DNA of 24,833 bases, from IMG/VR virus record IMGVR_UViG_3300044695_007157, positions 1 through 24,833 of that record, one strand, 5' to 3'. Position 1 is the first letter of the stretch. Every line of letters starts with the position of its first letter. A program made the position numbers and the translations under genes. This document shows positions 13,926 to 24,833 of this stretch, piece after piece. The notes beneath the pieces are model-generated. The model did no database searches, was not told the origin of the DNA, and saw only the letters and a list, made by a program, of their open reading frames with translations. Origin of the DNA: a virus.

Positions 13926-13929
13926 ATTA

Positions 13930-14211: not shown

Positions 14212-14223
14212 CCATCCTTACCC

Positions 14224-14258: not shown

Positions 14259-14397
14259 CCAGCAAAAAAATAGCAAGGTACTTAACAATCTACCACACTT
14301 CCTTTTAATGGGGGATATTTTAAGGAAGAGATAAACAAGAATGTAGCTCACGGGACGGCAATCCCCAACTACTTTAATACTGAAAATGAGTATCAAC

Positions 14398-14469
14398 ATG
14401 GATATTTATCACATCGCTTTCAAAAAACCAGAACATAAAACATATTTCATTTTAGCTTACGATAAATAA
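14398..14469 (+). pseudogene. Remnant of the 73-aa gene
   Basis: 23-codon open frame MDIYHIAFKKPEHKTYFILAYDK ending 4 nt before kinase copy B. Its last 16 residues match the end of the 73-aa protein at 13112-13333, which likewise sits just before kinase copy A. The upstream two thirds are missing. It is best read as the truncated 3' end left by a tandem duplication, though a translated micropeptide is possible. Confidence 0.6.
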
Positions 14470-14473
14470 GAAT

Positions 14474-15070
14474 ATGAAAATTAAAGAATTAACCGGATAT
14501 AAAAGCCATCCACATTTCCAACAAGCATCTCAAACATTTCAAGGTGATTTGAGCGCTTTTAAACCCCGTATTGATAAATTGGAACAGTTTCAAAAATATA
14601 TGTTGGATAACGGATTTAAACACCTGGGTACCGGATCCTACGGTTCAGCTTATATTCACCCAACTTATCCCTGGGTTTTAAAAATCTTTACTCACGACCC
14701 AGCATTTTTACAATATATTAAATATATTAGAACACATCAACATAACCCAAATGTCCCAAAAACTACCGGACCTATCATTAGAATCAACGAAAATACATTC
14801 GTGATTAGATTGGAAAAATTAGAACCAATTGTTGGTAAGAATCTTTCAGATCTAATGGCAGTTATTAAACCACTATTCTACGCACGTGAATTAACAACTG
14901 ACCAAAAAGAATTCCTACTGCAACACTATCCAGGTATTTTTGAAATTATTGACGATATGGATAAATTACCATCTCAACCCGAGTTGGACCTACATAAAGG
15001 TAACGTCCTATTACGTAACAATACCCCAGTTATCCTAGATCCAATCGTCGGAGCTACTTATGAAAATTAA
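14474..15070 (+). CDS. Small protein-kinase-fold protein, copy B
   Basis: 198-residue paralogue of the 13338 protein. It has a canonical glycine loop GTGSYGSAY (residues 52-60) and candidate ATP-binding Lys70 in WVLKIF. The catalytic-loop type DLHKGN is at 172-177 and the metal-binding type LDP at 188-190. Shared stretches with copy A include the MKI-x-ELTGYK leader, HPTYPWV and QHNP-x-VPK. With all motifs intact it looks more likely than copy A to be an active kinase; the substrate is unknown. The last residues (ATYEN) and the stop codon are supplied by the start of the next gene, which overlaps by 11 bp. Confidence 0.75.
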   Translation: MKIKELTGYKSHPHFQQASQTFQGDLSAFKPRIDKLEQFQKYMLDNGFKHLGTGSYGSAYIHPTYPWVLKIFTHDPAFLQYIKYIRTHQHNPNVPKTTGPIIRINENTFVIRLEKLEPIVGKNLSDLMAVIKPLFYARELTTDQKEFLLQHYPGIFEIIDDMDKLPSQPELDLHKGNVLLRNNTPVILDPIVGATYEN

Positions 15071-15080
15071 AGAAATTACA
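15060..15080 (+). repeat. Duplicated MKI leader, copy 1
   Basis: A 21-bp stretch beginning ATGAAAATTAAAG is identical to 16192-16212. Here it gives the start codon of the 380-aa gene and, in another frame (AT GAA AAT TAA), the stop codon of kinase copy B. Confidence 0.85.
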
Positions 15081-16202
15081 ACAGTTCTAGTTGAACTCAG
15101 AACAAATCCAAAACAGAATTCCAAAATTTCTGAAATGGACCAACTGAATCAAGCACTTGAGAAAAACGGTGGAAAAATGGATAATCTTTTTGTTAGATTC
15201 ACAGATGATAACAAATTAGGAATTAATCCACAACATTCTTATGCAACCCCGTTTGGGATATGTGCATATCCATTTGAATATGTGTACAAACGAAATTTAA
15301 ATGTGCCCTTTGCCGGTGATAGAAAGTTTGTGGTAATATTCACCGCCGATGACATGTCAAATGCATTGGATTTACAAAATACACCATTACAAAAGGCGAG
15401 AATAAAAATTATAAACGCGGCTGCTAAAGTTATAGACAATGATGAAAGTAAAGAACTAGTCAAATATAATATAACTTCTTCTAGAAAATTATGGTATAAG
15501 ATTTATAATATTGTTAGAAGTAATAGTGAAACCCCTAGAGAAGAAGGAATCACGATGATGAAAATTCTTAAAACAGCCGGTTATAATATGGTCGTAGACC
15601 ACGGCGACGGAATTATTCATAAAACAGAACCAGCACAAACTATTTTCTTATCTAAATCGGGTTTGACTATTGAAGCTATAATTGAAAGACGCAGAATCGA
15701 AAACGATAACAGAGTGAATATCGATACATACGTGGACACGGATACTTTTAAATATCAAAAATCATCGAATCCGACATTATCGAATGATGCACTGGTTAAA
15801 CAGGACCCAAGAATAGTTCTATCCATGAAGAAACCTACTAAAGAACAGATTGAAATCTATTATAATTGGGCTATTGATAATATGTATGCATATAAGTGGA
15901 ATAAGAATCGATTACCATTGCCGCACAAATACCAAATATTATTGGTGAAAAAAGACCCAAACGATATACAGTATTTAGACAATCCACCGGCAACTGTTCA
16001 ACAGGCAGCAGTTTTGACAGATTATATGTCATTATTCTATATTCAAAACACCCCGGACCCAAGTGCAGTTAACTTTGCACTACATCAATGTAATAAGGAA
16101 CTACCAGGCTACCTACCACATTTCATATCAATTATAGAAAGACGGTGGCCAACACAATATCAAAATATAATTGCAAAATATAGGGGCAATAATGAAAATT
16201 AA
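15060..16202 (+). CDS. Unknown 380-aa phage protein with MKI leader
   Basis: 380-residue protein, not assigned. After the MKIKEIT leader it has LGINPQHSYATPFGICAYP and NVPFAGDRKFVVIF. The middle carries TAGYNMVVDHGDGIIHKTEPAQTIFLS. The C-terminal third is helical and Tyr/Pro-rich. From memory, the pattern of a Y-x-TP-x-GI-x-x-YP block followed by D-x-G-x-GIIH-x-x-EP-x-Q occurs in uncharacterised proteins of other large phages. A vague likeness to ADP-ribosyltransferase folds is not strong enough to name it. The start overlaps kinase copy B by 11 bp, and its own stop lies inside the following MKI leader. Confidence 0.7.
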   Translation: MKIKEITTVLVELRTNPKQNSKISEMDQLNQALEKNGGKMDNLFVRFTDDNKLGINPQHSYATPFGICAYPFEYVYKRNLNVPFAGDRKFVVIFTADDMSNALDLQNTPLQKARIKIINAAAKVIDNDESKELVKYNITSSRKLWYKIYNIVRSNSETPREEGITMMKILKTAGYNMVVDHGDGIIHKTEPAQTIFLSKSGLTIEAIIERRRIENDNRVNIDTYVDTDTFKYQKSSNPTLSNDALVKQDPRIVLSMKKPTKEQIEIYYNWAIDNMYAYKWNKNRLPLPHKYQILLVKKDPNDIQYLDNPPATVQQAAVLTDYMSLFYIQNTPDPSAVNFALHQCNKELPGYLPHFISIIERRWPTQYQNIIAKYRGNNEN

Positions 16203-16212
16203 AGAAATTACA
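16192..16212 (+). repeat. Duplicated MKI leader, copy 2
   Basis: The second exact 21-bp copy. It starts the frameshifted gene at 16192 and supplies, in another frame, the TAA of the 380-aa gene. Confidence 0.85.
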
Positions 16213-16483
16213 GAATCAATATGACCTAGGACATAACGCAGGGGTGATATATCAATATGAACACCCAGACGAACCAATCGATACAACTTCAGATGCCGAA
16301 GAAGTCAATCCACAAAGACCAAGCTTTACTAACGGTAGACAACAAGCAGCTAGAATGATGAAAAAAGATTATACAGCAATCGGTGTTAATATCACTACAA
16401 AAGGCAAACGTGGATACCAAAAAACTAACTTCAATTATAAGTTTCCTAAAAGCCCAACTAATAACCAACCACCAATCGCATAA
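16192..16483 (+). pseudogene. Frameshifted GHxAG-motif gene, copy B
   Basis: The frame starting at the ATG reads MKIKEITESI and stops at 16222-16224. The +1 frame is open from 16196 to 16483 and reads DLGHNAG, then a hydrophilic stretch with PSFTNGRQQAARMM and a basic tail. The MKI leader, GHxAG core and SFxNG segment in that order match the 93-aa gene at 13930, so a single-base indel has split one gene. The only alternative start in the downstream frame is a GTG at 16244, whose nearest G-rich sequence directly abuts it. A pseudogene is more likely than programmed frameshifting, but the latter is not excluded. Confidence 0.65.
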
Positions 16484-16876
16484 GAATAGGGACTTGGATC
16501 AAAAACCAGCGATGTACTCACTACATTCCTTCTATTTAACTAACCTCTAATTACTCTCTGATACTGAATGAGTATCTAAGAGTTTTACAGGTTCCACAAA
16601 TTTCATCACACTCAGAAAAAATTTTTGCGCCGGAAAATTTTATAAGGTAATTAACACTTAATACACTTACTTTGTCAGCCAAATTTTTCTAATTTCAACA
16701 AAATAAAAAAATTTCCGGGAATTTTTGAAAAACGGTTTTCACTATACCCACTTAGTTTTTTACCCAAAATTTTCGGATTTTTTTCAAAAAAATTATCCGT
16801 CAGAAAAGTTGGGGGGAGGTACTTAAAGATTATGCGACTTGTTTTTCAACATATAGGGGTCTATTTTAGAAAATAA

Positions 16877-17008
16877 AATAGATAGAAAAATAGATAGAAA
16901 AATAGATAGAAAAATAGATAGAAAAATTGTTGATAAAATAGATAGAAAAATTGTTGATAAAATAGATAGAAAAATTGTTGATAAAATAGATAGAAAAATT
17001 GTTGATAA
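16877..17008. repeat. 12-bp tandem repeat array (11 units)
   Basis: Eleven head-to-tail 12-bp units. Four copies of AATAGATAGAAA are followed by alternating AATTGTTGATAA and AATAGATAGAAA, giving a higher-order 24-bp period. Eleven units span 132 bp without interruption. In one rightward frame it would encode repeating KIDR/KIVD tetrapeptides, but no ATG, GTG or TTG opens that frame. Confidence 0.9.
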
Positions 17009-17274
17009 AATCAAGAAGTTTTTTGCACGGCTCCACAATTTTGTTGCGAATAATTCTCATTTACACGCCACCCCCCTATCAGAATTTTTTATTTTTGTCA
17101 AGAACTTTTTTTCACGCGATTGAAAAAAAGTTGGCACGATTCTTGCATAGCACCCCCACCCCCCCCTATCATATTTTTATTTTTTTGTCAAGAAAAAAAT
17201 ATATTAAAAATATATTATTTTATTACGCGATAACATAAAAATATATTATTATGTATATTACCCCCACCCCCACT

Positions 17275-17314
17275 CGATATATTCAGAACATATTAGTTTA
17301 TCCTGAATATATCG
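17275..17314. other. 12-bp inverted repeat beyond the last leftward gene
   Basis: Perfect arms CGATATATTCAG (17275-17286) and CTGAATATATCG (17303-17314) with a 16-nt loop, 20 bp past the stop of the last leftward gene. There is no T tract, so it is either an unusual terminator or a protein-binding dyad. Confidence 0.6.
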
Positions 17315-17333
17315 CTTGGGGATATAATACCCT

Positions 17334-17525
17334 CTATCTATCAAACTCTAAAGAAAACCTGCCGTTTACTTGCCGAACGTGATAACCCCCAACGTAGGGG
17401 ATAAAAACGAAGGCTGTACAGCCTTCAATCCAAGAGTCTTGGATTGAAGGACTACCATTAAAAACGGTAGCCAATAACCGCTTTGCGCGGTCTACCGCGT
17501 TCTGTTCTGTTTTAAATACTTTCAT
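17334..17525 (-). CDS. Hypothetical 63-aa protein, last gene of the leftward array
   Basis: Small protein MKVFKTEQNAVDRAKRLLA followed by a beta-rich half (CTAFVFIPYVGGYHVRQVNG). AAGGA lies 10 nt before the ATG. It was not recognised as a known family. The coding region contains a perfect 13-bp inverted repeat (17422-17434 / 17438-17450) and an overlapping 14-bp palindrome AGGCTGTACAGCCT (17411-17424), followed leftward by CGTTTTTAT, which resembles an intrinsic terminator inside the gene. Upstream is a cassette-like hairpin with only a weak promoter, so expression may depend on readthrough. Confidence 0.6.
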   Translation of the reverse strand: MKVFKTEQNAVDRAKRLLATVFNGSPSIQDSWIEGCTAFVFIPYVGGYHVRQVNGRFSLEFDR

Positions 17526-17558
17526 TTTTTTTAATCCTTACTTAATAGTTTATTGAAG

Positions 17559-17582
17559 GCTGGATATAATAGTATATCCAGC
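17559..17582 (-). promoter_or_regulatory. Cassette-like hairpin with weak promoter
   Basis: Perfect 10-bp arms GCTGGATATA / TATATCCAGC with a 4-nt loop. The minus strand offers TATACT (17571-17576) as a -10 box, but no recognisable -35 lies 16-18 bp upstream. The position matches the other cassettes, between two leftward genes. Confidence 0.4.
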
Positions 17583-17598
17583 TAATTTATATTGAATG

Positions 17599-18123
17599 TT
17601 AGGCAGTTATAATCTGCCCTTTTATTTTTAGATATTTTATGTTTTCCAGCTTAACTATTCTGAAAATTGCTTGATGTTCAATGTTATTTTTAACATTGAC
17701 AACCACGCCGCTAGTGTCTAGCGTTTTTTTCGCCTCTGCTGGGGTTTGATATTGCGCCACCTGTTCCCGTGTCGCAAGTTTACCGTTTATAAAATAATCC
17801 GCTTTAGAATTATTCCAAATTAAACTCAAATAATACTCATCCTTTGTATTATGTTTGCAAAGTGAATAAGTATCCAAGTGATGAAAGTACGTTGCTGTTT
17901 TTTCAAAACTTTCAGCGTTAGATGTTTTTAACACCTTGTTTAAATAAGGGTCTGTAGTGTCATTGATGTTATTAAATAACATCACCGAACCCGTGGATTG
18001 TTTTTCTATTACAATCCCCGCTTTTTTATTGGCGGCTGAAAGGCTAACAGGGGTTAGCGTTTCAATTTGACAAATTGTGCTACCTTTTACGTTATTCAAA
18101 GCGTTTTGAATTTTGTTAAACAT
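17599..18123 (-). CDS. Hypothetical 174-aa protein
   Basis: 174-residue, probably cytoplasmic protein of unknown function. Its N-terminus is MFNKIQNALNNVKGS. The middle has HHLDTYSLCKHNTKDEYYLSL and IWNNSKADYFINGKLATREQVAQY. It ends in FRIVKLENIKYLKIKGQIITA. The second half looks like a small alpha/beta domain of a type I recall in other phage accessory regions. AGGA precedes the ATG. The transcript from its promoter at 18230-18257 would have an unusually long leader of about 100 nt with a GC-rich hairpin and a hexanucleotide repeat. A GGCAG / CTGCC hairpin spans the stop codon. Confidence 0.65.
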   Translation of the reverse strand: MFNKIQNALNNVKGSTICQIETLTPVSLSAANKKAGIVIEKQSTGSVMLFNNINDTTDPYLNKVLKTSNAESFEKTATYFHHLDTYSLCKHNTKDEYYLSLIWNNSKADYFINGKLATREQVAQYQTPAEAKKTLDTSGVVVNVKNNIEHQAIFRIVKLENIKYLKIKGQIITA

Positions 18124-18151
18124 TGTTTTAATCCTATAAAAAATTGATAAT

Positions 18152-18172
18152 CCGCGCGGCTATATCGCGCGG
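18152..18172 (-). other. GC-rich hairpin in the 5' leader of the 174-aa gene
   Basis: 7-bp arms CCGCGCG / CGCGCGG with a 7-nt loop, strongly GC-rich against an AT-rich genome. It is adjacent to three copies of the hexamer CGTGTC (18175-18192, plus-strand reading). Both lie inside the predicted leader and could act in translation control or RNA stability. Confidence 0.55.
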
Positions 18173-18229
18173 GTCGTGTCCGTGTCCGTGTCCGTATTTT
18201 TAAAGAGCGTCTACCGTTGTAGGCCTTGA

Positions 18230-18257
18230 ATTATACAGGATTGAAAAAAGCCGTCAA
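18230..18257 (-). promoter_or_regulatory. Sigma70 promoter of the 174-aa gene
   Basis: On the minus strand TTGACG (18252-18257), 16-bp spacer, TATAAT (18230-18235). Unlike the other cassettes it has no hairpin around the -10; the hairpin lies in the leader instead. Confidence 0.75.
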
Positions 18258-18326
18258 TCTTTTTTTCATTTATTTTTAGGTGTGGCAAAGTCTACGCAAG
18301 ATTATAAAAAATCGCGTATAAAGCAC

Positions 18327-18351
18327 GAAAAACCATTGAGCCTATCAATGG
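18327..18351 (-). terminator. Leftward rho-independent terminator
   Basis: Reading leftward: stem CCATTGA / TCAATGG with loop TAGGC, followed by TTTTTC. It ends transcripts arriving from 18.4 kb or beyond. Confidence 0.7.
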
Positions 18352-18457
18352 CATTGATAAACAACAAAAACCGCTCAAAACGGCTCAGATTGCCTTTAAT
18401 CTAAAATTGATAACGGATCACGCGATTACATAATCCCAGCGACAAAAAATGTCGTTC

Positions 18458-18476
18458 GAGAATGAGAATGATTATC
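18458..18476. promoter_or_regulatory. Fur-box-like operator
   Basis: GAGAATGAGAATGATTATC matches 16 of 19 positions of the Fur consensus GATAATGATAATCATTATC. A second match (15 of 19, with a perfect 13-bp core) is centred in the hairpin at 18504-18542, and a partial one lies at 18542-18552. No promoter with a good -35 was found next to it. Confidence 0.45.
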
Positions 18477-18503
18477 AATCGCGTGAAACATCCCGTGAAA
18501 CAT

Positions 18504-18542
18504 CGCATCTGTACTTGATAATCATTATCAAGTACAGATGCG
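18504..18542. other. Perfect 18-bp hairpin with a Fur-like core
   Basis: Arms CGCATCTGTACTTGATAA (18504-18521) and its exact complement (18525-18542) with loop TCA. It is the longest perfect inverted repeat seen in the window. The centre reads GATAATCATTATC. It lies 12 bp past the stop of the 110-aa gene and has no T tract. Confidence 0.8.
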
Positions 18543-18554
18543 AATGATTATCGT

Positions 18555-18887
18555 TTAATCCAGATTTTGATCGGGATAAGCTTCGATCCCGTTATCCCGT
18601 AAAACCTTGGCATAGGCAATCGCCCCAGCATACAAGGTATCGACGTTTTGAACCATCATCCGCGCTGGATTATGCAAGGTTAATGCCTTGCTTGAATAAG
18701 ATTTGTAAAATCCCAGCGCCAACAACTGTTTGCCTAATTTGGTTGATCCCTTCACACCGTAAACATTGACACGGGCGAACCCGCATGGTAGGTGGTCTTT
18801 GCCACCTAATTCTGAATTGAAATAATCAAGAGCCGCAGTTTTGGCGGCAGTAGTGGCTTGATCGTGGATAGTGTTAAAATCTGTCAT
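18555..18887 (-). CDS. Conserved phage accessory protein, 110 aa
   Basis: 110-residue protein containing LPCGFARVNVYGVKGSTKL and a following YSSKALTLHNPARMMVQN segment, ending in AYAKVLRDNGIEAYPDQNLD. I recall this CGFA-x-VNVYG-type protein from many phages and plasmids of Gram-negative bacteria, without known function. The start is chosen by GGAG (CGGAGAAAAACC) before the ATG. Base composition is visibly richer in GC than the core genes of this phage, consistent with acquisition from another source. It has its own promoter cassette at 18918-18953. Confidence 0.75.
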   Translation of the reverse strand: MTDFNTIHDQATTAAKTAALDYFNSELGGKDHLPCGFARVNVYGVKGSTKLGKQLLALGFYKSYSSKALTLHNPARMMVQNVDTLYAGAIAYAKVLRDNGIEAYPDQNLD

Positions 18888-18917
18888 GGTTTTTCTCCGT
18901 AAAGTTAAAGTTAAGGT

Positions 18918-18953
18918 GAGCCGCCATTATAGCGGCTCTGGTGGTTATGTCAA
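18918..18953 (-). promoter_or_regulatory. Promoter/stem-loop cassette of the 110-aa gene
   Basis: Minus strand: TTGACA (18948-18953), 16-bp spacer, TATAAT (18926-18931). The -10 lies in the loop of a perfect 7-bp inverted repeat GAGCCGC / GCGGCTC (18918-18924 / 18932-18938). Confidence 0.85.
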
Positions 18954-18962
18954 GCAATGATT

Positions 18963-19082
18963 TTAATAATCATCCCAGTGTTCAAGCCAACGATTTTCTG
19001 CCGCTTGCATTTGAATTGCGACTTTTGCTTCGTATGAAGCATCAAGAAAATTATAATACTCTTGAACGTGTGCATCCATCAT
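18963..19082 (-). CDS. Small hypothetical protein, 39 aa
   Basis: 39-residue peptide MMDAHVQEYYNFLDASYEA continuing to an end of AENRWLEHWDDY, predicted to form one or two amphipathic helices. It is supported by GAGG 6 nt before the first ATG and by its own promoter cassette at 19111-19142, arranged exactly as for the neighbouring genes. A start at the second, adjacent ATG is equally possible. No family is recognised. The stop lies 9 bp before the -35 of the next cassette. Confidence 0.65.
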   Translation of the reverse strand: MMDAHVQEYYNFLDASYEAKVAIQMQAAENRWLEHWDDY

Positions 19083-19110
19083 AAAAACCTCGTTAAGTTA
19101 TCAGGTGAAC

Positions 19111-19142
19111 GTGTATTATATCGCGCCTATACACAATGTCAA
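19111..19142 (-). promoter_or_regulatory. Promoter/stem-loop cassette of the 39-aa gene
   Basis: Minus strand: TTGACA (19137-19142), 16-bp spacer, TATAAT (19115-19120). The inverted repeat here is GTGTAT / ATACAC (19111-19116 / 19129-19134), overlapping the -10 rather than flanking it symmetrically. Confidence 0.75.
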
Positions 19143-19153
19143 GCGCGATTGTG

Positions 19154-19219
19154 CATATCAGAATATGCTAATATGCACAGCTAGCACATATCAGAATATG
19201 CTAATATGCACAGCTAGCA
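19154..19219. repeat. Exact 33-bp tandem duplication
   Basis: Two identical 33-bp units (19154-19186, 19187-19219) starting CATATCAGAATATGC and ending in CAGCTAGCA. The second copy forms the last codons and stop of the 60-aa gene. The first lies between that gene and the next promoter. Confidence 0.9.
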
Positions 19220-19383
19220 TTATCTGATAGCGCTTCCAGTCTATTGACTTCGGCTATTGCATCAACTTCATTATCAAAGCTGGATAGCACGGTATCCATA
19301 TAAACCGTGGTAGAATGTTCACTAACCGCTCTGTATGAATAGCGGCCTTCCCAAACAACAACGTCATAATAATACTTTGCCAT
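19201..19383 (-). CDS. Hypothetical 60-aa protein
   Basis: 60-residue protein MAKYYYDVVVWEGRYSYRA, then VYMDTVLSSFDNEVDAIAEV and a short tail ending NASCAY. A beta-strand pair followed by a helix is likely. No family is recognised. The start has GGAG (ACGGAGTTTTATC) before ATGGC, the common start context of this array. The last codons come from the 33-bp tandem duplication, so the C-terminus may have been altered recently. The leader and promoter are identical over 68 bp to those of the next gene upstream. Confidence 0.65.
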   Translation of the reverse strand: MAKYYYDVVVWEGRYSYRAVSEHSTTVYMDTVLSSFDNEVDAIAEVNRLEALSDNASCAY

Positions 19384-19446
19384 GATAAAACTCCGTAAAA
19401 AAGAAAAAAATAAATCAGGTGAGCCGCCATTATAGCGGCTCTGGTG
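19379..19446 (-). repeat. 68-bp direct repeat, copy 1 (promoter, leader and start)
   Basis: Identical base for base to 19757-19824. It covers the -10 and hairpin, the leader, the Shine-Dalgarno and the start codon. The distance between copies is 378 bp, enclosing one gene. Confidence 0.95.
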
Positions 19447-19456
19447 CGATTGTCAA
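19421..19456 (-). promoter_or_regulatory. Promoter/stem-loop cassette of the 60-aa gene
   Basis: Minus strand: TTGACA (19451-19456), 16-bp spacer, TATAAT (19429-19434) in the loop of GAGCCGC / GCGGCTC (19421-19427 / 19435-19441). The TGA stop of the upstream gene (19453-19455) lies within the -35 box. Confidence 0.88.
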
Positions 19457-19761
19457 GCTATTTCAGGCAATGGCAATCGCACCCGTGGGATTGCCAACTC
19501 TGGATACTCTTCGAGCCTTGAAAACCCAAATCCTAAAAGTGGACGTTCGAGCTTTATTTTCTCGCCTGAATATCGATTTTCGATTTCAGTTATCCAAGAC
19601 GGATCTTTGTATTCCCACCATTTTTCAAAGGCATAGCCACGCCCGTTCCATACACAACAACGGGCGAATAAAACCCCGTCCGCTCTCATCGCGGCCTCTG
19701 CTCTTTGGCCTCTGCTGTTATAACCAGAGAAAAAACGTACTGCCGGTGCTGACTTAGCCAT
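19453..19761 (-). CDS. Hypothetical 102-aa protein
   Basis: 102-residue protein: MAKSAPAVRFFSGYNSRG, GVLFARCCVWNGRGYAFEKWW, then a Glu/Arg/Pro-rich C-terminal half ending VRLPLPEIA. GC content is high for this genome. No family is recognised. The start context (GGAG, then ATGGC) matches the array. Its stop codon TGA is part of the TTGACA -35 of the next cassette. It is flanked by the 68-bp exact repeats, so it could be lost or circularised by one recombination event. Confidence 0.65.
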   Translation of the reverse strand: MAKSAPAVRFFSGYNSRGQRAEAAMRADGVLFARCCVWNGRGYAFEKWWEYKDPSWITEIENRYSGEKIKLERPLLGFGFSRLEEYPELAIPRVRLPLPEIA

Positions 19762-19824
19762 GATAAAACTCCGTAAAAAAGAAAAAAATAAATCAGGTGA
19801 GCCGCCATTATAGCGGCTCTGGTG
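19757..19824 (-). repeat. 68-bp direct repeat, copy 2 (promoter, leader and start)
   Basis: Exact copy of 19379-19446 at an offset of 378 bp. Sequence divergence begins immediately outside on both sides, just before the -35 and just after the second codon position. Confidence 0.95.
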
Positions 19825-19834
19825 GTTATGTCAA
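19799..19834 (-). promoter_or_regulatory. Promoter/stem-loop cassette of the 102-aa gene
   Basis: Minus strand: TTGACA (19829-19834), 16-bp spacer, TATAAT (19807-19812) in the loop of GAGCCGC / GCGGCTC (19799-19805 / 19813-19819). The TGA of the upstream gene (19831-19833) lies inside the -35. Confidence 0.88.
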
Positions 19835-20085
19835 GAAAAATAATCATCCACCGCTTGATCTATTTTGTCCTGTTCGCGGCTGGTGATTTTACGTTCAAGC
19901 CAAGGCGCTGGATAACCTTTTCTATCCAGAATTTCACCATTCCATTCTGAATATCCCCCAGCATCCAAATCATTGGATGCACCACGACCGCTGGCATCCT
20001 GACGGTAATAATCAGACACACCGATCAGGCACGGGATACCCGCGATTGAATGGTCAATGGTATGTGAAAAAGTAGACTTTGCCAT
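19831..20085 (-). CDS. Conserved phage accessory protein, 84 aa
   Basis: 84-residue protein with YYRQDASGRGASNDLDAGG and the segment EWNGEILDRKGYPAPWLERKI followed by a charged helix. From memory the ILDRxGxPAPWLERK segment is characteristic of a widespread phage hypothetical family in Gram-negative hosts; its function is unknown. The Shine-Dalgarno is GGGGGA rather than the GGAG of its neighbours. The stop codon is embedded in the -35 of the next cassette. Confidence 0.75.
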   Translation of the reverse strand: MAKSTFSHTIDHSIAGIPCLIGVSDYYRQDASGRGASNDLDAGGYSEWNGEILDRKGYPAPWLERKITSREQDKIDQAVDDYFS

Positions 20086-20112
20086 AAAATCCCCCGAAGG
20101 AAAGTGATTAAA

Positions 20113-20149
20113 GAAGCCGCTATTATAGCGACTTCAAAATCAATTGCAA
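20113..20149 (-). promoter_or_regulatory. Promoter/stem-loop cassette of the 84-aa gene
   Basis: Minus strand: TTGCAA (20144-20149), 16-bp spacer, TATAAT (20122-20127). Hairpin arms on the minus strand are GAAGTCGC / GCGGCTTC (8 bp with one T-G wobble). On the plus strand the same position is a C-A mismatch. Confidence 0.8.
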
Positions 20150-20155
20150 GCTTTT

Positions 20156-20521
20156 TTATTCAAATTCAGTTTCGACTTCGGTTTGAACGCCTTTGAAGTC
20201 GTCCACGCTCTGACATGGTTCACCCACCAACAAAGCTACTTTGTAGGCAAATTCAGGATCGATGCCTAACGATACCATCAATCGTTTGCCAACTTCGCCA
20301 AAAAAGTATAATCTAGCGTTCCGGCCTTCAACCTGATCGGTCAAGTTTTCCTTTTCTTCCAATGACATATCAGCAATGGCACGAAGTAAAACTTCTAAAC
20401 CAAGCTGTTGCATGGCAATTTGGTCATCGCTATCATCCCGCGCTGGGTTGATGTAATTCAATTGACGCGTAAATACTTCCCGCGCCATATCAACTGAAAC
20501 ATAATTTTGTTTTTTAGCCAT
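20156..20521 (-). CDS. Hypothetical 121-aa protein
   Basis: 121-residue helical protein: MAKKQNYVSVDMAREVF, then MQQLGLEVLLRAIADMS, a charged middle, and LMVSLGIDPEFAYKVALL before an acidic C-terminus. An upstream in-frame ATG at 20527 lies only 2 nt after the GGAG. The ATG at 20521 has the 8-nt spacing and ATGGC context used throughout the array, so it is preferred. No family is recognised. Confidence 0.65.
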   Translation of the reverse strand: MAKKQNYVSVDMAREVFTRQLNYINPARDDSDDQIAMQQLGLEVLLRAIADMSLEEKENLTDQVEGRNARLYFFGEVGKRLMVSLGIDPEFAYKVALLVGEPCQSVDDFKGVQTEVETEFE

Positions 20522-20557
20522 GTTCATTACTCCGTTTGTATCGTTGAAAGAAAGGAT

Positions 20558-20585
20558 AGTTTATCACACTTCTAGCCTTTGTCAA
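20558..20585 (-). promoter_or_regulatory. Sigma70 promoter without strong hairpin
   Basis: Minus strand: TTGACA (20580-20585), 16-bp spacer, weak -10 TAAACT (20558-20563). Only a 4-bp GATA / TATC dyad is present, so this cassette seems to have lost or never had the stem. Confidence 0.6.
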
Positions 20586-20588
20586 TAC

Positions 20589-20882
20589 TTAATGTTTATG
20601 GTCATCCCAACAACCAAACCCGTTGATATACACAAAGCCGCCACCTTCGGCCTTTGCTGTTGTGGCATTAGGTCTTGGCATTGTATTAGATATTTTTTGC
20701 ACCTGTCTTGACGCATAGGCACGATATTGACCAGTGCGGTTTTCCTGTTCTTTGGCTTTACAGGATTTTGAACAAAACTTCCCCCAGCCACGTTTCCGAT
20801 CAGCGATTCTAGCTTGAAAATCGCAATTGCATTTTTTACATTTTACCCAAACATAACCAGTTTTTGCGATTAAATCTGCCAT
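20589..20882 (-). CDS. Zinc-ribbon conserved phage protein, 97 aa
   Basis: 97-residue protein with a four-cysteine zinc site: VKCKKCNCDF, and after about 20 residues GWGKFCSKSCKAKEQ. A Gln/Arg-rich linker follows, with a Gly-rich C-terminus (GGGFVYINGFGCWDDHKH). From memory, similar small zinc-ribbon proteins are common in phages of Gram-negative bacteria; nucleic-acid or protein binding is plausible but unproven. An in-frame ATG exists at 20897, but GAGGG 8 nt before the ATG at 20882 decides the start. Confidence 0.7.
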   Translation of the reverse strand: MADLIAKTGYVWVKCKKCNCDFQARIADRKRGWGKFCSKSCKAKEQENRTGQYRAYASRQVQKISNTMPRPNATTAKAEGGGFVYINGFGCWDDHKH

Positions 20883-20905
20883 GATTAAAACCCTCAATTC
20901 GTTAA

Positions 20906-20943
20906 GATGGTGCTATTGTCGCACCATCCCAATTACCTGTCAA
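20906..20943 (-). promoter_or_regulatory. Promoter/stem-loop cassette of the zinc-ribbon gene
   Basis: Minus strand: TTGACA (20938-20943), 17-bp spacer, GACAAT (20915-20920) within the loop of an 8-bp perfect inverted repeat GATGGTGC / GCACCATC (20906-20913 / 20921-20928). Confidence 0.85.
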
Positions 20944-20950
20944 GCTTTTT

Positions 20951-21034
20951 TTAATCCAATAATTCAAGCGTTAAAAAAACATAACCACAAATAAAACCCA
21001 AGGTTATCACAACAACCGCTATAAATTCAATCAT
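20951..21034 (-). CDS. 27-aa single-span membrane microprotein
   Basis: A 27-residue peptide, MIEFIAVVVITLGFICGYV then FLTLELLD, almost entirely one hydrophobic segment. GGAG lies 9 nt before the ATG (CGGAGCAAAAAAA). It begins 17 nt past the stop of the 91-aa gene, with no promoter between, so it is the second cistron of that gene's cassette. It would insert in the inner membrane. The role is unknown; small phage membrane proteins of this size often modulate host envelope or lysis functions, but nothing here shows that. Confidence 0.6.
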   Translation of the reverse strand: MIEFIAVVVITLGFICGYVFLTLELLD

Positions 21035-21051
21035 TTTTTTTGCTCCGCTGT

Positions 21052-21327
21052 TTAATCGTAATCATCCACCAGATCACCGCAAGCAAGCCACAATAATCTG
21101 ATTATATTTTGTTGATGGTCTTTTAAATCGCTTTGATCCCATGCACCATATTCTGATAATACACTACTCAAAATATCTTTGTCAATCAATTTTGTTTGTC
21201 TTTTGATTGACACCTTTTCAGATAATGCGATAACATCCATTTCACATTCACCTGTATGACAAGCTTTTTTCGCATTGTTCAAGGTGATATTCAATTCAAT
21301 ACGACCGCAGGATGATGTCCACCACAT
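21052..21327 (-). CDS. Conserved phage accessory protein, 91 aa
   Basis: 91-residue protein starting MWWTSSCGRIELNITLNNA, followed by the HTGECEMDV segment with cysteines and by a helical half with SEYGAWDQSDLKDHQQN and IIRLLWLACGDLVDD. From memory the WWTSxCGRIEL and YGAWD segments mark a widespread phage and plasmid hypothetical family; its function is unknown. GGAG lies before the ATG. It probably shares its message with the downstream 27-aa membrane peptide. Confidence 0.75.
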   Translation of the reverse strand: MWWTSSCGRIELNITLNNAKKACHTGECEMDVIALSEKVSIKRQTKLIDKDILSSVLSEYGAWDQSDLKDHQQNIIRLLWLACGDLVDDYD

Positions 21328-21353
21328 ATTATTTGCTCCGCTGTGTTAAGTTA

Positions 21354-21388
21354 GGTGCATTATACAGCTAGCATAATGCACCTGTCAA
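21354..21388 (-). promoter_or_regulatory. Promoter/stem-loop cassette of the 91-aa gene
   Basis: Minus strand: TTGACA (21383-21388), 18-bp spacer, TATAAT (21359-21364). It has perfect 10-bp arms GGTGCATTAT / ATAATGCACC, with GCTAGC in the loop. Here the -10 overlaps an arm. Confidence 0.85.
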
Positions 21389-21395
21389 GCCTTTT

Positions 21396-21629
21396 TTAAT
21401 CGAAAGTTATAAAGGCAATTTGGCAAAGTCCCGCTGGTCTGATTTCAATCATATCACCGAAGTCATGTACCTTGGATTTGATGCCATTGAATCCAGTCGC
21501 TTTTTTCGCGGCTCTCACAATAGCCAATCGGCTATCGGTCTTAACTTCTAAGGCATGACGGCGAACCCACGAATAATTTGACTCTCCGCCGAAGGTGTCG
21601 GTATGTTCTACTTTGATTGATACTGCCAT
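21396..21629 (-). CDS. Conserved phage accessory protein, 77 aa
   Basis: 77-residue protein: MAVSIKVEHTDTFGGESNY, then SWVRRHALEV, LAIVRAAKKATGFNG and DFGDMIEIRPAGLCQIAFI. From memory the RAAKKxxG and GDMxEIRPxGxCxI pattern recurs in hypothetical proteins of phages infecting Gram-negative bacteria. A compact alpha/beta fold is likely; function is unknown. GGAG and the ATGGC start context match the array. Confidence 0.72.
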   Translation of the reverse strand: MAVSIKVEHTDTFGGESNYSWVRRHALEVKTDSRLAIVRAAKKATGFNGIKSKVHDFGDMIEIRPAGLCQIAFITFD

Positions 21630-21656
21630 TTGATTTGCTCCGTGTTAGTGAATAAA

Positions 21657-21691
21657 GGTGCATTATACAGCTAGCATAATACACCTGTCAA
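21657..21691 (-). promoter_or_regulatory. Promoter/stem-loop cassette of the 77-aa gene
   Basis: Minus strand: TTGACA (21686-21691), 18-bp spacer, TATAAT (21662-21667). The arms equal those at 21354 except for one base, which makes a T-G wobble on the minus strand and a C-A mismatch on the plus strand. Confidence 0.85.
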
Positions 21692-21695
21692 GCGT

Positions 21696-22070
21696 TTATG
21701 CAAATTCTATTTCACCAGTATAGTTATATGGTTTATCCCATTTGCCGATTTTGATGTCAATATACCAACCGACATCAAAATAATCGGTCATGATGTCAGA
21801 ATTATCATGATTGCCGGTCATCATTGCCGCCTTCAATTCTAGCAGACAATCTTTAGCACGTCCAGTAAAATGATCCGCAATCCAATAGGTATTAACGCTG
21901 ATATGACCATGACCACTATCTTTCAAAAAATCAATATCACCACTTGAAATTGTAACAATCAATGATGAATAATTATCTACTGAAATTGAACCTTTTAGGT
22001 TATATTTTTTCAACACCGCTTTGATTGCTGGTGTCAATTCTTTTTTTCTATCTTGGCTCATGTATGCCAT
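21696..22070 (-). CDS. Conserved phage accessory protein, 124 aa
   Basis: 124-residue protein: MAYMSQDRKKELTPAIKAV, a SGDIDFL segment, HGHISVNTYWIADHFTG, then MTGNHDNSDIMTDYFDVGW and IGKWDKPY. I recall the GNHDNSDIxTDYFDVGWY block from a family found in many phages, plasmids and prophages of Gammaproteobacteria; no function is known to me. GGAG precedes the ATG in the standard context. A second in-frame ATG (MSQDRK) could also be used. Confidence 0.78.
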   Translation of the reverse strand: MAYMSQDRKKELTPAIKAVLKKYNLKGSISVDNYSSLIVTISSGDIDFLKDSGHGHISVNTYWIADHFTGRAKDCLLELKAAMMTGNHDNSDIMTDYFDVGWYIDIKIGKWDKPYNYTGEIEFA

Positions 22071-22097
22071 TTGATTTGCTCCGGTGTTGTTGATAAA

Positions 22098-22131
22098 GTG
22101 CTATTATCTCAATTCTAATAGCACCTGTCAA
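22098..22131 (-). promoter_or_regulatory. Promoter/stem-loop cassette of the 124-aa gene
   Basis: Minus strand: TTGACA (22126-22131), 17-bp spacer, GATAAT (22103-22108). It has 9-bp arms GTGCTATTA / TAATAGCAC (22098-22106 / 22116-22124). The arm sequence differs from both neighbours while the pairing is perfect. Confidence 0.85.
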
Positions 22132-22140
22132 GATTTTATT

Positions 22141-22377
22141 TTAATATAGCGTGGCTATTTCAAGTGGTTTAAAAGCTGAGAAACGATCCCCGCCTAAATT
22201 GCGTTTGCAACAATCACAAGGCTTATGCGAGAAACCCAGCTCTGCACCACCAAAGAACGCATCTTTCGTGCCTTCAATGATAGCATAATCGATTTCTTCG
22301 GTGCTGTCAACTGGTAATTCGCCATTCGCGATTAATTGAATGCAATCTTCACAAACTGCTAATTCTAAAACTTCCAT
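22141..22377 (-). CDS. Cysteine-rich conserved phage protein, 78 aa
   Basis: 78-residue protein with two cysteine pairs: LAVCEDCIQLIANGELP near the N-terminus and HKPCDCCKRNLGGDRFSAF near the C-terminus, consistent with one zinc site. From memory the CxDCxxxIANGE and PCDCCxxxLGGxR pattern is a recurrent phage and plasmid hypothetical family. Function is unknown. GGAG with an 8-nt spacer precedes the ATG. Confidence 0.75.
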   Translation of the reverse strand: MEVLELAVCEDCIQLIANGELPVDSTEEIDYAIIEGTKDAFFGGAELGFSHKPCDCCKRNLGGDRFSAFKPLEIATLY

Positions 22378-22406
22378 TACTTTGCTCCGGTGTTGTTGTT
22401 AAGATA

Positions 22407-22440
22407 GGTGCATTATAGATTGTTATAACGCACCTGTCAA
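22407..22440 (-). promoter_or_regulatory. Promoter/stem-loop cassette of the 78-aa gene
   Basis: Minus strand: TTGACA (22435-22440), 17-bp spacer, TATAAT (22412-22417). Arms are GGTGCGTTATA / TATAATGCACC, 11 bp with one G-T wobble; the plus strand has an A-C mismatch there. Confidence 0.88.
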
Positions 22441-22443
22441 GCC

Positions 22444-22779
22444 TTAAATGTAAAAATGAATTCTATTTGGGTCGGTATCAATAAAGCATTGATCGGTAGT
22501 CCCAGCATGATAATTCTCGAAGGTATCGCCGTGCTTATCAATAAATCTATTAGCTTTGCCTATAAATTCAGGATTGATGCCAGCTTGAAATTTGGGATCA
22601 ATTTCATTAGGAAATAGATAATTAAATCCTTTATAATTGCCTGAATTATGCAATATACGTTCAACCATATATCTATAACCATTGACAAAATCCGATGATA
22701 CATTATTTGGATCATAGGTTTTAAAAAACTCGTTGGCTTCGGCTACCAGTATTGATACTTCAATTGTTTTTCTTGCCAT
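22444..22779 (-). CDS. Conserved phage accessory protein, 111 aa
   Basis: 111-residue protein: MARKTIEVSILVAEANEFF, GYRYMVERILHNSGNYKGFNY, and a C-terminal TDPNRIHFYI. From memory the ERxLHxxGNYxGFxYL and DPxRxxYY features are those of a small phage hypothetical family common in accessory regions; its function is unknown. GGAG precedes ATGGC in the standard context. The stop is 4 bp before the -35 of the next cassette. Confidence 0.75.
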   Translation of the reverse strand: MARKTIEVSILVAEANEFFKTYDPNNVSSDFVNGYRYMVERILHNSGNYKGFNYLFPNEIDPKFQAGINPEFIGKANRFIDKHGDTFENYHAGTTDQCFIDTDPNRIHFYI

Positions 22780-22805
22780 TTGATTTGCTCCGATTGATTA
22801 AGATA

Positions 22806-22839
22806 GGTGCATTATAGATTGATATAACGCACCTGTCAA
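22806..22839 (-). promoter_or_regulatory. Promoter/stem-loop cassette of the 111-aa gene
   Basis: Minus strand: TTGACA (22834-22839), 17-bp spacer, TATAAT (22811-22816). The arms are the same 11-bp wobble-containing pair as at 22407, and the loop differs by one base. Confidence 0.88.
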
Positions 22840-22843
22840 GAAA

Positions 22844-23278
22844 TTAAATATAATCTTTATACATCTCGCGATTGAACAAAGAACCATTGTTCTCATCAAC
22901 TAAACCGCGTAACTTAACAAAAAACTTGTCAAAGGCTTTGGATGCTTTTTTCTCATCACCTGTAAACTGTCTAAAACCTGTTTTAAGGCGCTTAATGGCA
23001 AGATATGATCCAGCATCAGGTTTTAAATCTAAGCCGCCTTGTAAATAACTGACTTCCATTTTTTCCAGATTATCACCGGATAAGAAAATAAGCCACTGGT
23101 GAAACATCGGATCATTTGGGCGAATCTTATTCGATACATCATTCAAATCACCAATCAAGCCACACCGAACATTGATTTGATGACCGGATAAGCCTTGATC
23201 CATAAAGGCACTAAAATAGCCTTTCGGAAACTGTGTTTTAAATGATTGTTCAAGGTCGTTGATCAATGATTGTGACAT
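22844..23278 (-). CDS. Conserved phage accessory protein, 144 aa
   Basis: 144-residue protein: MSQSLINDLEQSFKTQFPK, then INVRCGLIGDLNDVSNKI, RPNDPMFHQWLIFLSG, and a helical C-terminal half (KAFDKFFVKLRGLVDE). From memory a NDPxxHxF segment followed by YLAxxxxxxxxR is seen in related phage proteins. Function is unknown. GGAG precedes the ATG, which is not followed by the GC of the usual ATGGC context. Confidence 0.72.
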   Translation of the reverse strand: MSQSLINDLEQSFKTQFPKGYFSAFMDQGLSGHQINVRCGLIGDLNDVSNKIRPNDPMFHQWLIFLSGDNLEKMEVSYLQGGLDLKPDAGSYLAIKRLKTGFRQFTGDEKKASKAFDKFFVKLRGLVDENNGSLFNREMYKDYI

Positions 23279-23304
23279 CTGGTTTGCTCCGTTTGGTTAA
23301 GATA

Positions 23305-23338
23305 GGTGCATTATAGATTGATATAACGCACCTGTCAA
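23305..23338 (-). promoter_or_regulatory. Promoter/stem-loop cassette of the 144-aa gene
   Basis: Minus strand: TTGACA (23333-23338), 17-bp spacer, TATAAT (23310-23315), with the same 11-bp wobble-containing arms and the same loop as at 22806. Confidence 0.88.
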
Positions 23339-23346
23339 TAATTATT

Positions 23347-23667
23347 TTACATCGACCAGCTAATTTGCGACAATTCACCAGTGATGATATTACCACGAGA
23401 AAAGTTTTTTGCTGGTGCTTTAAAACTAGCGGCTTTTAAAACATCACCCGCTTTAAATTTACCGCTGTCAGCTTTAACGATAAAGCTGTGAACAGAACCA
23501 TCTTTAATTACTTTCAGATATGATTTTCCTTCGTCAACTCGAACACTGGCATTAAAATGATCGATTGCCGCTTGATTGTTATAGCCCATAACATTACGAT
23601 GCCAATTAGCATAATCGGCTTTGATGACATTCAAATAGTTTTCAACTTGTTCTTTGGTAATGCTCAT
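23347..23667 (-). CDS. Conserved phage accessory protein, 106 aa
   Basis: 106-residue protein: MSITKEQVENYLNVIKADY, SYLKVIKDGSVHSFIVKAD, and the C-terminal block FKAGDVLKAASFKAPAKNF followed by SRGNI. I recall the FKxGDxLKAASxxxPAxNxARGN block from a widespread hypothetical family in phages of Gram-negative bacteria. Function is unknown. GGAG lies before the ATG. Confidence 0.78.
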   Translation of the reverse strand: MSITKEQVENYLNVIKADYANWHRNVMGYNNQAAIDHFNASVRVDEGKSYLKVIKDGSVHSFIVKADSGKFKAGDVLKAASFKAPAKNFSRGNIITGELSQISWSM

Positions 23668-23687
23668 TTTTATTGCTCCGTTTGGTT

Positions 23688-23727
23688 AAGATGGTGCTAT
23701 TATCGCACCATCTTTTTAACTTGTCAA
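23688..23727 (-). promoter_or_regulatory. Promoter/stem-loop cassette of the 106-aa gene
   Basis: Minus strand: TTGACA (23722-23727), 17-bp spacer, GATAAT (23699-23704) in the loop of a perfect 10-bp inverted repeat AAGATGGTGC / GCACCATCTT (23688-23697 / 23705-23714). The TGA of the upstream gene (23724-23726) is inside the -35. Confidence 0.9.
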
Positions 23728-23945
23728 ATTTGTTTTAAAAATACTTGATCGCTTGATAACTTCGCTACTTGCCACCCGTGGCTTTTTAATAACGTGTTAT
23801 AATGTTTTTTCGGATACATCGGATCAAGACTCAATTCACCCGCTGAAAATTCGGCTATAACTTCGTTTGTTTCTGTTATAACACAACGACTGGTTGCCTG
23901 AGAAGCTGGCAATCCTGATTGGATTTGAAATTTTACTTCTATCAT
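23724..23945 (-). CDS. Hypothetical 73-aa protein
   Basis: 73-residue protein: MIEVKFQIQSGLPASQATS, a CVITETNEVIAEFSAGELSL segment, then DPMYPKKHYNTLLKSHGW and a short tail ending VFLKQI. An alpha/beta fold is likely; the family is not recognised. GGAG (CGGAGCAATAGCG) precedes the ATG. The stop codon TGA forms part of the TTGACA of the downstream cassette. Confidence 0.65.
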   Translation of the reverse strand: MIEVKFQIQSGLPASQATSRCVITETNEVIAEFSAGELSLDPMYPKKHYNTLLKSHGWQVAKLSSDQVFLKQI

Positions 23946-23967
23946 CGCTATTGCTCCGTTTGGTTAA

Positions 23968-24005
23968 GATGGTGCTATTATCGCACCATCCCAAATTACT
24001 GTCAA
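23968..24005 (-). promoter_or_regulatory. Promoter/stem-loop cassette of the 73-aa gene
   Basis: Minus strand: TTGACA (24000-24005), 17-bp spacer, GATAAT (23977-23982) in the loop of GATGGTGC / GCACCATC (23968-23975 / 23983-23990). The leader is the same as at 23688. Confidence 0.9.
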
Positions 24006-24008
24006 CTA

Positions 24009-24155
24009 TTATTTTTGTCTGCGATAAACCTTGATCGATGGATTATATCCATCATGGTTTATTAAACCTTCACGGACATAATCACGGTCACATGATGGTA
24101 AATAAAAAACAGTGTTGATCAATCTGCCGTACAAATAAACATTCCAAGCGGCCAT
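24009..24155 (-). CDS. Small conserved phage protein, 48 aa
   Basis: 48-residue protein: MAAWNVYLYGRLINTVFYL, PSCDRDYVREGLINHDGYN and a basic end KVYRRQK. From memory the WNVYLxGxxIxTVFF and LINHDGY pattern is that of a very small phage protein family seen in many Gram-negative phages. Function is unknown. GGAG (CCGGAGCAACAACG) precedes ATGGC, and it has its own promoter cassette at 24183-24216. Confidence 0.75.
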   Translation of the reverse strand: MAAWNVYLYGRLINTVFYLPSCDRDYVREGLINHDGYNPSIKVYRRQK

Positions 24156-24182
24156 CGTTGTTGCTCCGGTGTTGTTAAGATA

Positions 24183-24216
24183 GGTGCATTATAGATTGAT
24201 ATAACGCACCTGTCAA
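24183..24216 (-). promoter_or_regulatory. Promoter/stem-loop cassette of the 48-aa gene
   Basis: Minus strand: TTGACA (24211-24216), 17-bp spacer, TATAAT (24188-24193), with the same 11-bp wobble-containing arms as at 22806 and 23305. Confidence 0.88.
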
Positions 24217-24219
24217 TAA

Positions 24220-24387
24220 TTATTTTACATAGCCCAATGATCGCCATTGGTCATACGTGGTGTAATCATTAAAAACCACAAACTGACCAGCATTAGCGAC
24301 AACATGCGCCACTGATATTTTTATTTTTCTAATTATGGCATTAGGGAAAGCTTTTTGGGCTTCATATCGTGTGCTGAAATAATTCAT
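24220..24387 (-). CDS. Small hypothetical protein, 55 aa
   Basis: 55-residue protein: MNYFSTRYEAQKAFPNAII, then RKIKISVAHVVANAGQFVV and FNDYTTYDQWRSLGYVK. A helix followed by two strands is likely. It is supported by GGAG (ACGGAGCAGAAAA) before the ATG, by the promoter cassette upstream and by a stop just before the next -35. No family is recognised. Its own promoter lies inside the 3' end of the upstream gene. Confidence 0.65.
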   Translation of the reverse strand: MNYFSTRYEAQKAFPNAIIRKIKISVAHVVANAGQFVVFNDYTTYDQWRSLGYVK

Positions 24388-24406
24388 TTTTCTGCTCCGT
24401 CAATGT

Positions 24407-24688
24407 TTAAGATGGTGCTATTGTCTCACCATCCGGTAAACTTGTCAAATCCTGTTCGCAAATTTCAATGATTTGACACCTAATTCTATCTTTAATTGCA
24501 ATTGTTTCGATTAACGGTTGAATTTGGTAAACCGTTTCATATTCGCCCATTTCAAATTGAAAAATTTCAATTATTGTACCAACTTTTCCAACATTTAATT
24601 TTAAATATGGTAAAAGTTCAAGGTCATCACCATAATCACCGTCCATTGATTTTACTCTAACTCTATCACCAACTTTAAATTTTGACAT
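24407..24688 (-). CDS. SH3/KOW-like hypothetical protein, 93 aa
   Basis: 93-residue protein starting MSKFKVGDRVRVKSMDGDY, with KLNVGKVGTIIEIFQFEMG, features of a small SH3-like or KOW-type beta-barrel (GDRVRV followed by GxxGTI). Function is unknown. The final residues (DLTSLPDGETIAPS) are encoded by the downstream promoter cassette: the reading frame passes through TTGACA and the hairpin and stops just after it. This suggests that the original stop was lost when the cassette was recombined in. GGAG lies before the ATG. Confidence 0.7.
   Translation of the reverse strand: MSKFKVGDRVRVKSMDGDYGDDLELLPYLKLNVGKVGTIIEIFQFEMGEYETVYQIQPLIETIAIKDRIRCQIIEICEQDLTSLPDGETIAPS
24411..24448 (-). promoter_or_regulatory. 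Promoter/stem-loop cassette of the 55-aa gene (inside a CDS)
   Basis: Minus strand: TTGACA (24443-24448), 17-bp spacer, GACAAT (24420-24425). Arms are GATGGTGA / GCACCATC, 7 bp plus one mismatch. It is nearly identical to the cassette at 24712-24749, including flanks. Confidence 0.82.
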
Positions 24689-24711
24689 GATATTTGCTCC
24701 GGTGTTGTTAA

Positions 24712-24749
24712 GATGGTGCTATTGTCGCACCATCCGGTAAACTTGTCAA
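24712..24749 (-). promoter_or_regulatory. Promoter/stem-loop cassette of the 93-aa gene
   Basis: Minus strand: TTGACA (24744-24749), 17-bp spacer, GACAAT (24721-24726) in the loop of a perfect GATGGTGC / GCACCATC (24712-24719 / 24727-24734). Confidence 0.88.
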
Positions 24750-24755
24750 ATCTTT

Positions 24756-24833
24756 TTATGCTGTTTCGTTTTCGTAAAATTCGGTAATTTCAGCTAATAG
24801 CGAATCAATATCATTCAAGGCTTGTTGGTGTTG
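24756..24833 (-). CDS. Partial leftward gene running off the window
   Basis: The last 25 codons of a leftward gene, ending DSLLAEITEFYENETA. The start lies beyond the right edge. The stop is 7 bp before the -35 of the cassette at 24712-24749, as in the other array genes. The visible part is an acidic helix; nothing else can be said. Confidence 0.6.
   Translation of the reverse strand, partial: QHQQALNDIDSLLAEITEFYENETA

Follow-up and report, generated by a model that had tools for sequence, protein, structure and literature searches.

The complete virus record IMGVR_UViG_3300044695_007157 (24,833 bases, the whole stretch of DNA analysed here and hereafter called the window) carries an array of 19 leftward (- strand) sigma70-type promoters, extending from position 24749 to 18230. 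Most of them are combined with a stem-loop built around the -10 box and nearly all stand before one tiny gene. We consider it fairly probable that these cassettes are of the PeSL type (promoter-early stem-loops), here in a lineage related to jumbo phages, and that they would provide the start of their own gene, the 3′ boundary of the upstream one and homologies for gene shuffling. At the sequence level, this proposal is based on the anatomy of the cassettes, their position, their excess over chance, a parallel in phage RB49 and one gene difference bounded by cassettes. PeSLs have reportedly been found in the T4-like phages RB49 and phi1 and later in T4/PST and KVP40/nt-1. The design thus already exists in some T4-like phages, and the window is a new and rich example of it in another phage group, apparently outside those from which it has been described. 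The PeSL design would thereby extend from the T4 family to an uncultivated, jumbo-phage-related lineage, in which the array is the densest among those examined and in which a gene has been caught present or absent at a cassette border.

The -35 box is exactly TTGACA in 17 of the 19 promoters (the two others being TTGACG at 18257 and TTGCAA at 20149) and the -10 box is TATAAT in 12 of them, GATAAT in three, GACAAT in three and TAAACT in one. By sequence, these would be the strong sigma70-like early promoters that are characteristic of PeSLs. Both strands of the region 16800-24833 contain 51 promoter-like sites compared to 29.2 (standard deviation 5.2) in shuffled sequences, and the 10 sites of this region that match at 12 of 12 positions are all located on the - strand. 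The leftward array of 19 promoters announced by the original prediction is therefore confirmed, but not its limits (17559-24749), since none of the 19 promoters lies within 17559-18229. The claim of one tiny gene per promoter holds for nearly all of them; however, the unit of the promoter at 21388 includes, besides the open reading frame (ORF) 21052-21327, a second ORF of 27 amino acids (20951-21034, delimited by eye). The ORFs of the array encode 39 to 174 amino acids and only two of the 17 array proteins scanned passed the Pfam cut-off, consistent with the setting of PeSLs, which are located in variable regions among small accessory genes.

The hairpins of the window were evaluated against 2000 shuffles of the spacer and of the 10 downstream bases, in which the -10 was left unchanged. 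With this test, 15 of the 19 promoters have a hairpin at the -10 at p ≤ 0.01 and 16 at p < 0.02, the additional one being that of the promoter at 24448 (p = 0.019). No -10 hairpin beyond chance was detected by shuffling at 20585 (p 0.82), 19142 (p 0.46) and 18257 (p 0.56). An inverted repeat had been proposed at the -10 of 17 promoters, all but those at 18230 and 20558 (the 18257 and 20585 promoters named by their other end): these two exceptions are upheld, whereas the 6-bp repeat of the 19142 promoter is at chance level. The array continues over another 20.8 kb in G001, an IMG/VR contig of 42,561 bases from metagenome IMG 3300034102 that is 99.84% identical to the window over 21,772 bases. 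Overall, 54 listed promoters are spread over about 27 kb, and a hairpin reaches p ≤ 0.01 at 25 of them, compared to about 0.5 expected, so that promoter and stem-loop share the same intergenic cassette as in PeSLs. This list was chosen by hand from scans; it omits the window cassette at 24448, which was tested separately, and includes its G001 counterpart at 20793. Automatic selection retained 42 promoters, including 21 with a hairpin (20 of which span the -10), and zero qualifying promoters on the opposite strand of the array. The prevalence of hairpins is significantly lower in positions 1-20790 of G001 (nine of 35 listed promoters at p ≤ 0.01) than in the window (15 of 19; Fisher p 4e-4). 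The array is thus longer than the window, which covers the end that is rich in hairpins.

As initially suggested, geometry rather than sequence is conserved. The arms belong to about 10 families without sequence relationship to each other (e.g., GAGCCGC, GATGGTGC, GGTGCRTTATA, AGGGCTAT, TTATACCG and TGTATCCATT), but they remain positioned at the -10, with loops of 3 to 10 nt (the chance-level repeat at 19142 excluded). At 7750 and 8232 of G001, one palindrome is even found in two opposite orientations. An upstream ORF could be assigned to 23 hairpin cassettes, and in 22 of these its stop codon is located between -4 and +9 nt relative to the -35; at -4 (i.e., 4 nt inside the -35), the stop is the TGA within TTGACA. 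The arm families have a start region in common, ATCTTAAC, which is found about 7 nt downstream of the -10 and is similar to those of RB49 and of the related contig G008. With the usual spacing of sigma70 promoters, the A of this region is the expected +1. The right arm is located between the -10 and approximately +4 and ends within a few nt of +1; therefore, a transcript initiated at the cassette's own promoter could not fold the stem, and only RNA reading through from upstream could. The geometry is thus in agreement with the earlier proposal that the hairpin would form in read-through transcripts only. Furthermore, imperfect pairs of non-duplicate arms correspond more often to G.U in the sense RNA (n = 12) than to A.C (n = 3; two-sided p 0.035). 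Base frequencies at fourfold-degenerate sites (A 0.364, T 0.327, C 0.198, G 0.110, i.e., A>T and C>G) are opposite to a C-to-T bias of the sense strand, and such a bias therefore does not explain the G.U excess, which leans towards RNA pairing rather than a DNA operator.

The strongest support for the PeSL likeness comes from the comparison of the window with G001. The window shows the order gene Z, cassette, a gene encoding 93 amino acids (24407-24688, - strand), cassette, next gene, whereas G001 shows gene Z, a single and partly different cassette and the same next gene, the 93-amino-acid gene being absent. One gene thus lies exactly between two cassettes, as predicted by PeSL shuffling, and cassettes border a gene gain or loss between close relatives in one event, as do PeSLs. 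The single cassette of G001 begins like the first cassette of the window, ends like the second, and its core matches another cassette located at 21514 of G001; because of this mixed make-up, simple collapse of two repeats by the assembler would probably not yield it. The 93-amino-acid protein has no match at E ≤ 0.01 in the phages collection. In the 21.8 kb aligned, the two sequences further differ by three substitutions at about 2.8-2.9 kb, six substitutions inside the differing cassette, and indels of 24 bases and one base at 17012 and 17167 in a C- and T-rich stretch; there is also a 6-base indel near the end of gene Z.

RB49 was compared directly over 71 kb, in which 37 promoters were found. 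As in the window, it combines a strong sigma70 promoter and a stem-loop, repeated between small accessory genes. Eight of the 37 promoters have a significant stem spanning the -10 (for example ATGGGAGTA-gtatta-TACTCCCAT), i.e., with the -10 in or beside the loop, so that the location of the -10 inside the loop is not, contrary to what had been put forward, a difference from RB49. However, the arms of RB49 are unrelated in sequence to those found here, and five more of its promoters have their whole stem in the spacer, a class not represented among the 25 significant hairpins of the array. The two arrays also differ by their phage group, the nearest named UvsX and DnaB matches of the window being jumbo phages and not Straboviridae, and by the density of the present one.

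Sharing of the hairpins by relatives in general can be rejected. They were found at two of seven promoters in 47 kb of T4, at none of five in 50 kb of KVP40 and, among related contigs, at none of eight in G010 and none of five in G007. G008, G010 and G007 carry, like the window, runs of tiny genes each behind TTGACA/TATAAT, but their -10 hairpins are rare or absent; G008 nevertheless has the same start-region pattern. The ssb promoter of relatives has a hairpin at p < 0.05 in three of seven distinct sequences (p 0.06-0.20 for the four others). The orthologs used were L024, L039, L040, L046, L054, L059 (at 8407) and L079, after removal of the duplicate L025 and of pattern matches located elsewhere (L086, L049 and a second one in L059). 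One promoter of CBB and one of pEa_SNUABM_47, both jumbo phages, have their -10 in the loop (stem type CACCCCGC-TATAATA-GTGGGGT, identified by folding without the shuffle test), as single instances unlike the array described here. These are two of 14 short stretches of jumbo phages, another of which has a spacer hairpin; the 14 stretches, derived from 67 perfect promoters in nine records, were partly picked by eye and do not provide a frequency. The number of perfect promoters ranges from 0 to 21 in the nine named jumbo phages (287-490 kb each) compared to 31 on the array strand of G001, a count that allowed a wider gap although all 31 have gaps of 16-18. Two minor observations concern the related contigs: in G008 (18001-58000, loci L089 and L090), comparable promoters that precede small genes form a leftward array, and at 2362 of locus L091 (G010), the arms ACCCAAAG/CTTTGGGT bracket, by eye, the -35 and not the -10, which is another placement of the stem.

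Taken as a whole, these data suggest a mechanism in which a strong sigma70 promoter would be squeezed into the short interval from the stop codon of a tiny gene to the ribosome site of the following gene, with a stem-loop built around its -10 in about half of the cassettes. Provided that the promoters are active, their own transcripts would begin with the A located about 7 nt downstream of the -10, where the right arm ends or is about to end, and would keep only the last few nucleotides of the stem. By contrast, in read-through RNA the whole stem would immediately follow the upstream stop codon and may mark a 3′ boundary there by pausing or terminating the polymerase or by blocking a 3′ exonuclease. 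Near-identical cassette stretches of roughly 30-85 bp could serve as short homologies, and recombination between them would cause the gain or loss of single genes.

Several observations weigh against this proposal. The stop codon of the upstream ORF is found in the same -4 to +9 range at 13 of 28 hairpin-less promoters, and its closeness is thus not specific to hairpins. Of the 54 array promoters, 29 have no hairpin at p ≤ 0.01 and 23 of these also have no significant stem just upstream; many promoters therefore have neither, and insulation is not a general need. In G008, only two of 28 comparable promoters have a -10 hairpin. The gene difference is a single event and was observed between metagenome assemblies. 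The sites behind the G.U excess are few and in part related, one outer extension accounts for two of the three A.C pairs, and in RB49 the imperfect pairs amount to four G.U and three A.C. Lastly, at least five T in the 8 nt that follow the right arm were found after only one of 23 stems (median of three T). This count included 23 of the 25 hairpins, those at 1635 of G001 and 24749 of the window being omitted.

A broader view of the same observations is that promoter hairpins devoid of U tract are a 3′-boundary element that exists only in read-through RNA, and that it arose repeatedly, with unrelated arms, in this phage, in RB49 and at single promoters of jumbo phages. The DNA of the core promoter would then double as an RNA end-former for the preceding gene. 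We put this forward as a tentative possibility.

It is unlikely that the promoters are fused to ordinary intrinsic terminators, with stems that would halt upstream transcription at each cassette. The stem-loops of RB49 and phi1 PeSLs are said to be effective terminators, and the hairpin-less promoter at 18257 is preceded by two terminator-like stems with U tracts (18386-18368 and 18352-18332). However, the GC-rich stem followed by a U tract that defines such terminators was found only once among the 23 stems, although U-tract terminator-like stems occur elsewhere in the same genome, and the -10-spanning hairpins of RB49 lack a U tract in seven cases out of eight. Intrinsic termination as the main function is thus not supported by the tails, either here or in RB49, and the insulation of each gene that had been suggested is not supported in this form. 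The lack of U tract in both cases (22/23 and 7/8) sharpens the question of how such stems could terminate or insulate.

It is quite improbable that the palindromes are DNA operators at which a phage or host repressor would cover the -10 and shut early promoters, the arm families corresponding to several repressors or to a lax one. A dyad spanning the -10 to +1 is in a classic operator position, and arms are common to several promoters. However, instead of one conserved dyad, a single array exhibits about 10 unrelated arm sequences and variable loops, and the imperfect pairs lean to sense G.U, which would not be preferred by a DNA-binding protein. Moreover, no repressor family was matched by the array proteins searched (10 against PHROGs and 17 against Pfam), although most of them belong to no family at all. 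Finally, it seems least plausible that the hairpins are functionless in themselves and hitchhike with a few palindromic cassettes copied by recombination: many cassettes are indeed near-identical copies and hairpin frequency is uneven between the window, the rest of G001 and G008, but about 10 arm families show one placement, RB49 has the same geometry with other arms, and this geometry recurs in CBB, pEa_SNUABM_47 and the ssb promoters mentioned above.

The individual cassettes of the window, all on the - strand, are as follows. The first (24711..24749; -35 at 24749-24744) has the arms GATGGTGC/GCACCATC (stem 24735-24711, E -14.8, p 0.001) with the -10 GACAAT (24726-24721) in the loop and precedes ORF 24407-24688, and the second (24410..24448) has the arms GATGGTG/CACCATC around the -10 GACAAT (24425-24420; E -10.0, p 0.019) and precedes ORF 24220-24387. 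The cassette 24183..24216, with the arms GGTGCGTTATA/TATAATGCACC and its -10 TATAAT (24193-24188) in the right arm, lies before ORF 24009-24155; GGTGCGTTATA arms are also found in 23305..23338 (ORF 22844-23278), 22806..22839 (ORF 22444-22779) and 22407..22440 (ORF 22141-22377), with p 0.0005 for all four. The GATGGTGC arms recur in 23967..24005 (-10 GATAAT in the loop, p 0.0025, ORF 23724-23945) and in 20905..20943 (-10 GACAAT in the loop, p 0.0005, ORF 20589-20882). In 23689..23727, AGATGGTGC arms hold a -10 GATAAT in the loop (p 0.0005) before ORF 23347-23667, and 22097..22131 (GTGCTATTA/TAATAGCAC, -10 GATAAT, p 0.0015) stands before ORF 21696-22070, which belongs to phrog_10415. The next two, 21657..21691 (GGTGTATTATGC arms, including G.U pairs) and 21354..21388 (GGTGCATTATGC arms), both at p 0.0005, precede ORF 21396-21629 and the two-ORF unit described above, respectively. 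Arms GAAGTCGC/GCGGCTTC with one U.G pair and a loop -10 TATAAT (p 0.0005) are found in 20113..20149, upstream of ORF 19831-20085 (Pfam YuA_Gp49). GAGCCGC arms are carried by 19799..19834 (GAGCCGC/GCGGCTC, -10 in the loop, p 0.001, ORF 19453-19761), 19421..19456 (p 0.002, ORF 19201-19383) and 18918..18953 (p 0.0005, ORF 18555-18887).

Three promoters of the window have no hairpin beyond chance: 20558..20585 (TTGACA-16-TAAACT, before ORF 20156-20527), 19115..19142 (before ORF 18963-19082) and 18230..18257 (TTGACG-16-TATAAT, about 106 nt before ORF 17599-18123). Two of them have another stem upstream, namely the promoter at 18257 and that at 19142, which follows a strong stem located just upstream of its -35 (E -22.8, p 0.01). 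Compensation of missing hairpins by other upstream stems was not retained, since it is only a weak trend in the whole array (upstream stems at p < 0.05 in six of 29 hairpin-less promoters compared to three of 25 with hairpins). A tandem stem-forming repeat, TGTGCATATCAGAATATGCTAATATGCACA, is also found at 19150-19229, just upstream of the promoter at 19142.

The carrier of this array resembles jumbo phages. The families matched by rightward genes of the window include those of single-strand DNA-binding protein, UvsX, helicase, primase and DnaB-type helicase. The best named matches of UvsX are jumbo phages (Vibrio phage 2.275.O, XbC2, CBB, Phosso and GAP32; 65-68%) and that of DnaB is PA5oct (52%). 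With regard to membership of the T4-like phages (Straboviridae), UvsX and a DnaB-type helicase are present, the best named matches are jumbo phages, and the record is a fragment. No near DNA match was found for 12000-24833 in the phages collection by megablast, nor any distant one for 18900-24833 by blastn. In the viral_contigs collection, G001 was the only other carrier of the two arm patterns searched, and a leader pattern derived from relatives had no match.

Some additional features were observed in and around the array. Two U-poor stems (17558-17618) are located right after and across the stop codon of the gene that ends the array (17599-18123), and no leftward promoter match was found there. 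At 18503-18543, the arms of an inverted repeat match perfectly over 20 bp around a 1-nt centre. In G001, the interval 8232-8560 of locus L086 contains two perfect promoters in tandem, at a distance of 154 nt. Both precede a strong stem of the AAGCTGGTAG...CTACCAGCTT type and no clear ORF, and the interval may encode small non-coding phage RNAs. Lastly, two rightward proteins of the window resemble, by family match, the T7 protein kinase. A DNA repeat with 80% identity (13283-13390 and 14419-14526) is located at the starts of their ORFs, and this kinase-like gene is duplicated (13338-13925 and 14474-15070); the text of its PHROG family gives RNase III as its target, and this might be relevant to RNA hairpins.

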